From: Candidatus Vallotiella adelgis
GTDB taxonomy: Bacteria > Pseudomonadota > Gammaproteobacteria > Burkholderiales > Burkholderiaceae
NCBI RefSeq assembly: GCF_020541305.1
Contig: NZ_CP047396.1
Span: forward strand, 372,001-436,000
Direction of reading: 5' to 3'
Length of the DNA stretch: 64,000 nt
Shown: positions 21,148-30,438 of the stretch, piece by piece
Layout of the letters: the number at the start of each line of letters is the position of its first letter
Numbering within the stretch: the stretch's first letter is position 1
The notes under the pieces: generated by a model
The model's input: only the letters and a program-made list of their open reading frames with translations
Databases searched by the model: none
Told to the model about the DNA's origin: nothing
Made by a program: the position numbers and the translations under genes

Positions 21148-23733
21148 TTAACTATTATTCGTTAGAGCTACCGCTAGTCGATCAGTTTCAGCAATCTGCT
21201 GCAAGCCCGATAGCTTAGTACCTTTGTCAAGGTTGATTAGTGTAACACCTTGGGTAACTCGGCCCATCTCGCGAATTTCAGCAACACGCGTACGAATTAG
21301 CACACCAGCGGTCGTGATTAGCATAATCTCACTATCTGGTTCGACTAGCGTAGCAGCCACCATCTTGCCATTTCGCTCCGAGGTTTGAGTCGCGATTATA
21401 CCCTTTGTTCCGCGTCCATGCCGTGTGTATTCTGCAATGGGCGTTCGCTTACCGTAGCCATTCTCAGTCGCAGTCAGTACTGATTGTAATTCACCGTCAG
21501 CTACCAGCAATGCAATGACCTGCTGACTACCCTCAAGCCGCATGCCGCGGACGCCGCGGGCCTCCCGCCCCATCGGGCGCACGTCGTTTTCAGCAAACCG
21601 AACTGCCTTTCCGGCATCGGAGAACAGCATTACATCATGCTGCCCGTCGGTAATCTGCGTACCGATTAGAAAATCTCCGTCATCGAGCGCCACTGCGATT
21701 ATACCCTTCCTTAGCGGCCGCGAGAATGCTTCAAGTGGTGTCTTCTTTACGGTGCCCAGCGATGTGGCAAGGAATACGAACTTTTTTGCTGAAAACTCTT
21801 TGACTGGTAGTACCACATTAATTTTTTCGCCTTCCTGCAGCGGGAACATATTCACGATTGGCCGGCCGCGTGAGTTGCGCGAGCCTTGCGGCACTTCATA
21901 GACCTTGAGCCAATACACGCGCCCTCGATTCGAGAAACACAGGATGTGATCATGCGTGTTCGCAATGAATAGTGTCTCAATCCAATCATCGTTTTTTGTA
22001 ACGATTGCTTGCTTGCCACGTCCACCACGTTTTTGTGCATAGTACTCGGATAGCGGCTGCGATTTAATGTAACCGGCGTGTGACATCGTGACAACCATAT
22101 CCTGCGGTGTAATTAGATCTTCGGTACCCAGCTCGATAGCGTTTAATTCAATCTGCGAGCGTCTGTGGTCAGCAAATTCCGCTTTAATCGCGACCAGCTC
22201 GTCGGTAACGATCGTGCAAATCCGCTCTGGTTTTGCTAAGATATCCAGTAGATCTACGATCCGTGCTATTACCTCGCGATATTCGGCTGTAATCTTATCT
22301 TGCTCTAGGCTAGTTAATCGCTGTAGACGCGTCTGTAAGATTTCCTGAGTCTGTGTGTCTGATAGCCTATACAGGCTATCAGACTGCGTACCAAAAATAT
22401 CCGCTAGCCCATCAGGACGAAAAGCATCTCGCCCGTCTGGAGTTTCTTTTTGCGCGTTTGACAGCATATCGCATACTAGAGCCGAGTTCCACGAGCGCAT
22501 CATCAGCTCTTGCTTTGCGATCGGTGGCGTTGAGGCCGACTTGATAATCGCAATAAACTGGTCAATGTTCGGCAGTGCCACTGCTAGCCCCTCAAGAACG
22601 TGACCACGTTCGCGTGCGCGGCGTAACTCATGGAGGGTGCGTCGCGTAACTACTTCACGCCGATGCGATAAGAAGCACTCTAGTAGATCACGCAGGTTTA
22701 GTAGCTTCGGCTGACCGTCAACCAACGCAACCATATTCATACCAAACGTATCTTGCAGCTGCGTATTTTTATATAGCTTGTTAAGAACAACTTCCGGTAC
22801 TTCATTGCGTTTAAGATCAAGCACCACACGCATTCCGCTTTTGTCAGACTCGTCACGGATATCGGAAATGCCTTCGATCTTCTTCTCATTAACTAGCTCA
22901 GCGATTCGCTCGAGTAGAGCGCGCTTATTAACCTGATACGGCAACTCATCAACAATAATCGCCATACGCTGGCTGCGGTCGATCTCCTCAAAATGAGTTT
23001 TAGCGCGCATTACAATACGCCCACGGCCGGTACGATAGCCATCGTGCACGCCTTGCACGCCGTAGATGATCCCAGCCGTCGGGAAATCAGGCGCTGGGAC
23101 GAGTTCGATTAGTTCGTCGATCGATGCCTGTGGGTAGTGCAGCAGATGCTGACACGCATTCGTAATTTCGCTTAAGTTATGAGGCGGGATATTTGTTGCC
23201 ATGCCAACTGCGATACCAGACGAGCCGTTGATTAATAGGTTTGGAATCCGAGATGGCAGTACTTGTGGCTGCGTTTCACTACCATCATAATTCAGCTCAA
23301 AGTTCACGGTCTCCTTATCGATATCGATAAGGAGACCGTGGCCAATCTTCGCGAGTCGGATCTCGGTGTAGCGCATCGCCGCGGCGTTGTCTCCGTCGAT
23401 TGAGCCGAAGTTGCCCTGCCCGTCTACCAGCATGTAGCGCAACGAGAAATCTTGCGCCATACGCACGATCGTTTCATAGACCGCACTGTCGCCATGCGGG
23501 TGATATTTACCAATCACATCGCCAACGATGCGCGCAGATTTTTTATACGCGCGATTCCAATCGTTTTTCAGCTCATGCATTGCATAGAGCACGCGTCGAT
23601 GCACTGGCTTAAGTCCGTCACGCGCATCAGGCAATGCTCGGCCTACGATTACGCTCATCGCGTAGTCTAGATAGGAACGACGCATTTCCTCTTCAAGAGA
23701 AATAGGCAAGGTCTCTTTGGCAAATTGATCCAT
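21148..23733 (-). CDS. gyrA: DNA gyrase subunit A
   Basis: ATP-dependent type II topoisomerase subunit that cleaves DNA and introduces negative supercoils with GyrB. Key parts: [17 protein letters not shown] start, the winged-helix region [17 protein letters not shown] (quinolone region; position 87 is Glu), active-site Tyr122 in AAMRYTE, and the GyrA-box QKRGGRGK in the C-terminal pinwheel domain. 861 aa, full length. Two perfect inverted repeats lie inside the coding sequence (23305-23340 and 22357-22384); residues 133-136 (GLLI) inside the first are unlike the family. No clear ribosome-binding site. Confidence 0.97.
22357..22384. repeat. Perfect hairpin in gyrA, 12-bp arms, 4-nt loop
   Basis: gtctgatagcct, loop atac, then the exact complement. 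It encodes gyrA residues about 450-459 (SDSLYRLSD); the YRLSD part is conserved in family members while the preceding SDSL is in a variable loop. Confidence 0.9.
23305..23340. repeat. 36-bp perfect palindrome inside gyrA
   Basis: Eighteen-bp arms with no loop, centred between 23322 and 23323. It encodes residues 132-143, [12 protein letters not shown]. The DIDKETV half is conserved in GyrA; the HGLLI half is not (E. coli has HELMA). Confidence 0.93.
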
Positions 23734-25784: not shown

Positions 25785-26143
25785 GGGGCCGACTTGGTTT
25801 CGACGTGGGTATCTGAGCAATGTAGGGCATACCGAGGACCCATCACCTCGTAAATCAATGGGGCTTAAGTAACTGCGAACGATACAACGTACGCACTAGC
25901 TGCTTAACACCAGCTAGCCTCGCACTAGCACGCTGACGGGCTAGAGTCGCAAGACTACACGAGGTCATTAACGCCAGCTAATCCCCGGTAAAGTCACGAC
26001 GTCGGGGCTAAAAATCTAGTGAATCGCCATAGCGAAGCGTGTTCGTCCGCGTCAATGTGGTTAAATTAAAAGACTGGACTAAGTATGTAGAACTAGTTGT
26101 AAAGCGCTTGCGGACGCGGGTTCGATTCCCGCCGGCTCCACCA
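25785..26143 (+). ncRNA. ssrA: tmRNA (transfer-messenger RNA)
   Basis: Rescues stalled ribosomes and tags the incomplete protein for proteolysis, with SmpB. One-piece form: 5' end GGGGCCGACTTGGTTTCGAC, 3' end GGTTCGATTCCCGCCGGCTC followed by encoded CCA, whose acceptor arms pair with the 5' end. The resume frame at 25875-25907 reads ANDTTYALAA then TAA, a normal proteobacterial degradation tag ending ALAA. Length about 359 nt. A weak hairpin (ctctct / agagag, around 26169-26190) followed by a T-rich stretch probably terminates it. Confidence 0.96.
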
Positions 26144-26667
26144 ATATTTATCTTTAGTCAAATGACACCTCTCTGGATAACTAGAGAGAGCATGTCTTAT
26201 TTTTATTTATTATAAAGAAGGTTAGATGTTAATTAATAAATTAATTTGCAGATTTATCTACCGAATTTTGGGTTATCTGCAAATATAGTCGATTAGCAAT
26301 TTAAGTAACCCGACGTATTAAAAATGATTTTTTCTATACCGAAGAGTATAGAAAACCCTATTTGCCAGTCGTAAAGACTGGTACCTTCACATCAAAAAGC
26401 AAGACCATGCTATCCTAAACAATCCGAAAATACCCAATACTAATCTAATTATGCTGCGATAGCATATAGTAGGGTAAGATCTAAAACCACAAGCTGTGTA
26501 CTTTCGATTAAGTCTAATAATGTTTTCTGCTAGTACTCGGTGTAATATGTTATTTAAATACAGTGTTGATCTTTGTTAGATTTATGCTATTTACTTTCTT
26601 ATTGCAGCTGATAGCAGAAACAGCTTAACGCCCCGGAAGAATCTCAAGGTATCTGAATAAATACGAA

Positions 26668-26715
26668 GCATTATATCCAATCATCTCCCGATCGGGAGAT
26701 GATTGGATATAATGC
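26668..26715. repeat. 48-bp perfect palindrome, no loop
   Basis: Twenty-four-bp arms centred on cccgatcggg (centre between 26691 and 26692), running from gcattatatcc to ggatataatgc. No T tract and no adjacent gene. Confidence 0.95.
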
Positions 26716-26992
26716 GCTATTGGTCACGTAACTGCGTGCCACATTTACGCTAAGTGTGACCCTATAAGTGCGGCGGAGTTGCGACGAGAAACGCCAGCTC
26801 AAGCAATAAAAAGTGCTCAGATCACGATCTGCATTCATGATCTAGCTACCTTTATCTAAGTTTCTAATCAGAATAGATGTATCTGCGTAAGTCGTCGGCC
26901 GACAATCTCACGCTAGCTAAAAAATTGAGTTAATAAAGCAATTGCCGGGAAAGCGTGGGTAAGAGGAGCGTTTAACGCCTTGCTATTGCACA

Positions 26993-27027
26993 GCACGAGA
27001 GGGGAGGTGCACGCCCCCCTCTCGTGC
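26993..27027. repeat. Perfect hairpin, 12-bp G/C-rich arms
   Basis: gcacgagagggg at 26993-27004, an 11-nt loop, and the exact complement at 27016-27027. Not followed by a T tract. Confidence 0.88.
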
Positions 27028-28007
27028 GAGATCATAAAAGATCTGCCAGTATCCGGTTAGGTACATGCTGAGTACTAATTGCATATTGTGCTCAGCTAGC
27101 AATATCTAAAGGTGCGCACCCATACTCTGGGTGCGCCACTAATAATATGAGTGGCAGTCTAATCTGAGTACGTTTAGGTTGCCTTTTCTCGTTCCTTACT
27201 ATCGGGCAGGTATGATGATGCGTATCGTTGAGCTTGTATCCCTATCATATATTGCCATCTAAACTTTCTAGTAACATCTAGCGTTGATAGTTCTAGAAAT
27301 AACAAGCGGGTACTTTAGGATAAACCTACCCCAAAAAAGTAGGCATGATCTCAGTTATCTACTTTAACATTTTCTACTAAAGAACACTACTCTATCTGCT
27401 GCAATGAATATCACTATATTTACTGTAGTTAACTAGTATTGCAAACAATATAGCAATAATAATCTTCGATGCGATGATATTTAAAGTGCTTGCCACCACG
27501 CCCAGTACGTTGCAATTACCCTCACTTATGCTCCGTCGTTGAGGTGATATGAAGCCGATTGATTTTGGAAAGCAGCACTAACCGCATAGTTAATGCATTG
27601 TCAGTCAGTGTAGGCCTGTATACGTTGCTCTATTTGGAGATAAAATGCCAATATAGGTAGCAACTCCAGTCGGTAATAATATGTGCATATTCGGTTCTTA
27701 GCATGGCGGAACTTGTACAGATTCCGCGCGATATAGCCCACTTATTTCAGGTATCATGAGATCGGTTGCTATACGACATCGTCTAGATTTTTGCTCAGCG
27801 GGTTAGCGAGCAGTGGGTCAATTAGAGGTTTCTTACCTAATGTGATATTACAGCGCAGCCTATATAGGCATATATGTAGCATATAGACAAAGAATTTTGG
27901 CACTTGACTTTGAGATGCATCGGCTAACGAAGAATCGAGTCCACCGAGTATATCGGATATACGACTACGCGAAAAACGCCTAACATAGGAGAATAGAGCT
28001 AAATCCA

Positions 28008-28083
28008 TGGTGCCGGAGAGAAGACTTGAACTTCCGACCTTCGCATTACGAATGCGCTGCTCTACCAACTGAGCTACACCGGC
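28008..28083 (-). tRNA. tRNA-Thr (anticodon CGT)
   Basis: Cloverleaf on the minus strand: GCCGGTG acceptor, D-arm AGCTCAGTTGGTAGAGC, anticodon loop TTCGTAA (CGT, reads ACG), T-arm around GGAAG TTCAAGT CTTCT, encoded CCA. The sixth acceptor pair is T opposite T (28078 with 28017), a mismatch the usual tRNA-Thr lacks. All other stems pair, so it is probably functional. Confidence 0.95.
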
Positions 28084-29267: not shown

Positions 29268-30438
29268 GATAAGTGTCGAAGAACGCCATTCAAGAAGTGC
29301 GATCACAGGGGTCTTCTGACACCTGCGCCAGTACTGCGCTGCAATCTATAGCACTTTAATTCTACATGGATGGTGTAACTCATTAGTACGTTATTATGCC
29401 TACGCCATAATAACTGAATGTTAGATGAGTTCCACAGATTAGTCTCGCGTATTGTCGGCATAAAACCGATAAATATAGCCGTGGGAAGGGTCGGCAGAGC
29501 GGACTGATCGCCGGGGCGTTAGTATCGCGCATAGAGTTGCCAAACATCAGCTCTTTCGGGGCTAATAATATAGCGCTGTCACAGTGCTATATGACCTACG
29601 ATTTTCCGATATACATTACTATGAAGTTTTGGCAATAAGAGGCGGAATCGCAGTACTATAAATGCTGCACTTCGGCTCAAAGCTAGTGTGGAGTAGTTAC
29701 ACTTTATAGTGCGTGCTATTAGATAGCGCAGAAATCCATGCAGAGTGCTAGATTTAGTCTTTTTATTATCCGTGCCCATATATAATATTATATATGGGCA
29801 CGGATTAATGCAATCTTACCTAAATAAATTAGACGATAGTATACTAACACGCGCTGGAAATATCGGTGGAATAACTATTGCCAATAGAATCTGCATACAA
29901 GTGGATGACTGCTGTTACAGCAAGTGCGCATTAATCTATAGCAACGACCGAGACGTGACTGTTAAGTCGGCACTATATATAGTATATAAGAGAAAATTCC
30001 ATTAATTACATGATAGTTTTCCTGCTGAAAATATTATATCAGCGCATGCCCGCGTAAAGATCGGAAGCACACAATAGCTATATTGTGTGTAGGTTCATAT
30101 GTTCTTATGACTATGAGAATTAAAATTATCTCAATCGACGAGCGGGTTTTCGATAAATTCTGGTGATGCTCCAAAATTCTACTAAGACTAACGCTTATTT
30201 AAACTAGGTAGTACGTTCATACTAGCGGCTTAGTAAACAGTACTCCGACCTATGTCGATCTAGGAAATACTCGTACGATTCAGTTGCACCCAGATTACAT
30301 AATGAGAGCCTAGCTCACTACATTGATAGTTTTGCTGTTTCTAAACGCAATCGCACCCGGAATCGGGTGTATGTATAGCGACCTCTACCCACAGTTGCTC
30401 GACTATCACGCCACCGCACATCTACATAACAGCAATAG
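29268..30438. other. 1.17 kb spacer between pepN and fbp
   Basis: No gene recognised. Contains the 38-bp perfect palindrome at 29768-29805 and a 9-bp hairpin (cacacaata / tattgtgtg) at 30068-30089. Confidence 0.65.
29768..29805. repeat. 38-bp perfect palindrome, no loop
   Basis: Nineteen-bp arms: atccgtgcccatatataat and its exact complement, centred between 29786 and 29787. It lies in an empty spacer, with no T tract. Confidence 0.94.

Follow-up and report, generated by a model that had tools for sequence, protein, structure and literature searches.

A 48-bp loopless palindrome in an eroded spacer of an adelgid symbiont genome is probably a scar of replication template switching

Template switching has been described as a route by which quasipalindromes are turned into perfect inverted repeats in E. 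coli, according to the account given in PMC7202029, which cites Ripley 1982 and Dutra and Lovett 2006. The same process leaves footprints in rRNA genes (PMC8794818), and it is one possible mechanism behind the many perfect inverted repeats of nematomorph mitochondria, some of which lie in conserved coding sequence (PMC6649704). Among bacteria whose genomes are rich in inverted repeats, endosymbionts are over-represented (PMC10434271).

The palindromes reported here, from Vallotia-type symbionts, resemble the E. coli quasipalindrome mutation (PMC7202029) in that an imperfect repeat, in gyrA and in three further genes, appears to have been made perfect by the rewriting of one arm. Unlike the E. 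coli case, the changes in Vallotia are fixed in evolution genome-wide, fall mostly in spacers, and include loopless palindromes with arms of up to 30 bp. They are also numerous and perfect, as in nematomorph mitochondria (PMC6649704), but the nematomorph palindromes have arms of up to 142 bp and are coding, whereas those of Vallotia are shorter and mainly noncoding. Furthermore, the survey of PMC10434271 covered all predicted inverted repeats, mostly short ones, while the Vallotia excess concerns long perfect repeats of a kind that shuffled sequences do not give. If read correctly, these palindromes would show template-switch mutations becoming fixed over the evolution of a bacterial genome in decay, and gyrA, an essential gene, would provide a legible example.

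The window analysed is a stretch of 64,000 nucleotides (NZ_CP047396.1, the larger contig, positions 372,001 to 436,000, forward strand) from the genome of Candidatus Vallotiella adelgis, a Candidatus Vallotia-type adelgid symbiont with 1,240,189 bp in two contigs (G000). Together with three sister reduced genomes (G002, G003 and G005) it forms a set of four Vallotia-type genomes, and G003 we take to be Candidatus Vallotia tarda, symbiont of larch adelgids. Same-genus genomes of 3.3–3.8 Mb, presumably Mycetohabitans since the closest named match is a Mycetohabitans endofungorum locus, served as large-genome relatives, and genomes were compared by spaced sampled stretches.

An inverted-repeat search of the window returned, as its longest palindrome, a left arm at 26668–26691 and a right arm at 26692–26715 (+ strand), each of 24 nt, 100% complementary and with 0 nt between them, which is the perfect inverted repeat with short or no spacer that a template switch would produce. 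The palindrome is a real feature and lies far beyond chance: base composition predicts about 5e-9 such palindromes in 1.24 Mb, and first-order Markov shuffles of the sampled DNA of G000 contained no arms of at least 13 bp. It sits in a noncoding, eroded spacer (26144–28007), 525 nt downstream of ssrA (tmRNA; 25785–26143, + strand) and approximately 1.3 kb from tRNA-Thr(CGT) (28008–28083, − strand). In the large-genome relative G007, approximately 26 kb separates ssrA from fbp at the syntenic position. No recognisable gene or pseudogene was found from ssrA to tRNA-Thr, a search for gene remnants against the open frames of the ssrA–fbp interval of G007 (~ 26 kb, as far as two sampled stretches covered it) gave nothing credible, and an Rfam scan placed only the tmRNA and the tRNA above threshold. 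The preliminary description had reported a 48-bp loopless perfect palindrome, far beyond chance and in an empty spacer, and all of this was borne out, down to the exact coordinates.

The scan also produced microRNA matches on the palindrome, which were far below threshold and merely reflect the hairpin. The same spacer holds a second hairpin at 26993–27027 (12-bp perfect arms, 11-nt loop) and another at 27114–27136. In V. tarda, the corresponding ssrA spacer contains a 44-bp loopless perfect palindrome (L054:8177–8220) of unrelated sequence, possibly a coincidence or else a hotspot.

Palindromes of this kind recur in the window and across the lineage. Within the window, the inverted-repeat search found a 38-bp loopless perfect palindrome upstream of fbp (29768–29805), a 36-bp one within gyrA (23305–23340, − strand), and, in a spacer at 2258–2297, a hairpin whose perfect 18-bp arms enclose a 4-nt loop; three sister genomes had no hairpin in the corresponding syntenic spacer. 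Counting perfect arms of at least 14 bp with loops of 0–40, we obtained 31 hairpins in 464 kb of G000, 8 of them loopless and with loop 0 as the most frequent loop length, and 7, 13 and 16 hairpins in 195, 195 and 170 kb of the three sister genomes respectively. Three large-genome relatives had 0, 2 and 1 in 252, 250 and 60 kb, none loopless, in a comparison that is confounded by the differing GC content and coding density of reduced and large genomes. The lineage-wide excess is one of perfect palindromes in particular. When stem windows with 16-bp arms and loops of 0–8 were counted with overlapping centres, approximately 1.02 Mb of Vallotia DNA gave 87, 91, 142, 258 and 972 windows with 0, 1, 2, 3 and 4 mismatches, against 1, 8, 28, 127 and 683 in approximately 0.56 Mb from large genomes, so that the excess is steepest for perfect and near-perfect stems and drops with each added mismatch. 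Within coding sequence the enrichment of Vallotia over the large genomes is modest, and 23 of the 29 palindromes with arms of at least 14 bp and loops of at most 10 lie outside long open frames. The longest palindrome among the sampled DNA is a 60-bp loopless perfect one in V. tarda (L055:14360–14419).

Most of the palindromes are lineage-specific. Across syntenic spacers of sister genomes, any hairpin at all was present in 11 of 43 comparisons, mostly with unrelated sequence. A G000 hairpin in two copies (L029 and L035) with a counterpart in G005 departs most clearly from this pattern, and it probably sits at the ends of rRNA operons, going by an inferred rRNA assignment. Lineage-specific occurrence in spacers that do not align is the pattern expected of a by-product of mutation, and not of an element that is maintained.

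Where palindromes fall in genes, orthologues can be aligned, and one-arm overwriting is seen at several of these sites. At the gyrA palindrome (23305–23340), comparison with G007 found 17/18 bases identical in the low arm and 11/18 in the high arm, between flanks of 30/40 and 39/40, and all six pairs that are mismatched in G007 have been resolved by a change in the same, high-coordinate arm. The protein reads HGLLID at this point, where all six aligned orthologues have HELLAD or HELLTD; the putative template-switch event thus lies in an otherwise conserved stretch and may have brought a functional change to an essential enzyme. Three other sites behave similarly, with 6/6 pairs resolved in one direction at L027:3363, 7/7 at L170:8772 of G003 and 8/9 at L060:8429 of G005, and directions are mixed at several coding palindromes, e.g., L041:17552 and L167:10900 of G002. 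In such genes, one arm appears to be ancestral and the other overwritten by its reverse complement, and the mostly one-way changes would be the signature of template switching. One of these events can be dated within the group, as an inverted repeat occupies the same gene site in G003 (L170:8772–8811) and G005 (L173:1344–1383) and none is present in G002.

In a refined pooled test of 19 gap-free sites, each set against its nearest gap-free orthologue, 69 of 89 resolved pairs followed the majority direction of their site (expected 60.8 ± 2.8, p = 0.0044). This version was chosen after two earlier ones, neither of which was significant, i.e., a pooled comparison of arm asymmetry (p = 0.31) and a test of direction in which a base was taken as ancestral if it occurred in any orthologue (p = 0.37). 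The pooled support for overwriting is therefore moderate, and the single cases outweigh it. In the orthologues of coding palindromes approximately 63% of pairs are complementary, which fits the perfecting of quasipalindromes, but a similar picture would result if the palindromes were older and had lost their perfection in the relative.

We consider it probable that the palindrome at 26668–26715 is a mutational scar, left when replication switched template at an inverted repeat that was short and imperfect, and no function need be invoked for it. At this position we infer the event from the sister cases, because no orthologue in the sister and related genomes compared can be aligned with the spacer. 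A replication polymerase would stall at such a repeat, the strand being made would fold back or pair with the other new strand, and one arm would be copied before return to the template, leaving as second arm a reverse-complement copy that matches the first exactly. Such events may be expected to pile up in the long functionless spacers of symbionts, because there is no selection against palindromes there. More speculatively, the formation or persistence of palindromes may be favoured by the loss of mismatch repair and RecG, in combination with an SbcCD deficiency that is ancestral.

A competing idea is that the palindrome serves as a functional terminator or as an RNA-stabilising hairpin between the convergent ssrA and tRNA-Thr/fbp transcripts. 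Its predicted RNA fold is very stable on either strand (22-bp stem, 4-nt loop, −38.5 kcal/mol), a lenient scan accepts the − strand with a weak T-rich tail, TTCGTATTTA, and V. tarda carries its unrelated 44-bp palindrome in the same spacer. However, an intrinsic terminator is a stem-loop with a T tract just past a gene end, and at 26668–26715 the nearest gene ends are 525 nt and approximately 1.3 kb away and the + strand has no T tract. Furthermore, the ssrA spacers of G002 and G005 contain no such palindrome, and most palindromes of this type are neither conserved nor followed by a T tail (a T-rich tail is present in 4 of 45 with arms of at least 12 bp). A terminator or stabilising role is therefore unlikely, and the earlier view that this is no obvious terminator holds for a hairpin at least 525 nt from gene ends; its statement that there is no T tract is right for the + strand and has to be amended for the − strand, given the weak tail there. 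Operators typically show palindromic symmetry, but 48 bp of perfect symmetry goes beyond that of usual operators. A search of the whole genome for a second copy found the segment to be single-copy, unlike a dispersed REP or MITE, and the longest palindromes of G000 and its sisters have no obvious common sequence; we accordingly regard an operator bound by a protein, or what is left of a mobile element (REP, MITE or IS end), as very improbable. We give equally little credence to an assembly or library fold-back artefact, since the same kind of palindrome occurs in several genomes, V. tarda having been published by a different group than other Vallotia genomes, since the open frame is preserved through the gyrA palindrome, and since fold-back artefacts are usually far longer than 24 bp. 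The palindrome is probably not a functional element, and template switching is a known kind of mutation.

It had also been proposed that the palindrome survives because SbcCD activity is absent or weak. The absence itself is well matched by the searches: the TIGR00619 profile, positive in 13 of 14 control genomes, detected no SbcD in G000, SbcC had no real match there and, across the genus, at most weak and partial ones, and every palindrome-rich genome sampled is without detectable SbcD. However, none of the eight genomes of the genus, whether reduced or large, has a detectable SbcD, nor do most of the sampled Burkholderiales, and the large genomes of the genus have almost no long palindromes in their samples. 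Long palindromes are thus not general where SbcCD is absent, its absence is not a sufficient cause, and survival cannot be taken as a readout of SbcCD as the preliminary description had done. In addition, a length of 48 bp is short for SbcCD, which in E. coli matters for far longer palindromes. PMC4245961 dealt with a chromosomal one of 460 bp. That lack of SbcCD is the main cause of persistence therefore seems improbable, and the palindrome is better read as a mutational product than as a survivor of missing surveillance, which is a warning against treating it as a direct report on SbcCD.

As for other repair genes, Exonuclease I is absent from the six genus genomes tested, all six of which have intact ExoVII (xseA) and recJ. 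Both large genomes tested keep an intact MutS, and each of the four Vallotia genomes retains mutS only as short, stop-interrupted pieces, which come from differing portions of the gene. This agrees with an earlier report of Vallotia pseudogenes for mutS, mutL and recG (PMC8692619). Of the four, G002 alone has an intact RecG, the gene having decayed in G000, G003 and G005. Loss of MutS as a necessary cause was also considered and is weakened by G205, a reduced relative of 1.2 Mb without SbcD, which has loopless palindromes with 16- and 13-bp arms and an intact MutS, so that the loss is not required. The simplest factor common to the palindrome-rich genomes is DNA free of selection.

A broader reading, which we regard as possible though rather doubtful, is that the rate of template switching is raised throughout the Vallotia genome by the ancestral lack of SbcCD and Exonuclease I together with the newer loss of MutS and, mostly, of RecG, and that it would be a noticeable force in genome decay, altering even essential proteins such as GyrA. 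Four sister genomes that differ in their losses of repair genes could serve as a natural experiment on the brakes for template-switch mutation. Of the two contigs of G000, the second measures 66 kb, with approximately 41% GC over its first 40 kb, and resembles the plasmid of Vallotia lariciata (67 kb, 41.8% GC; PMC8857208).
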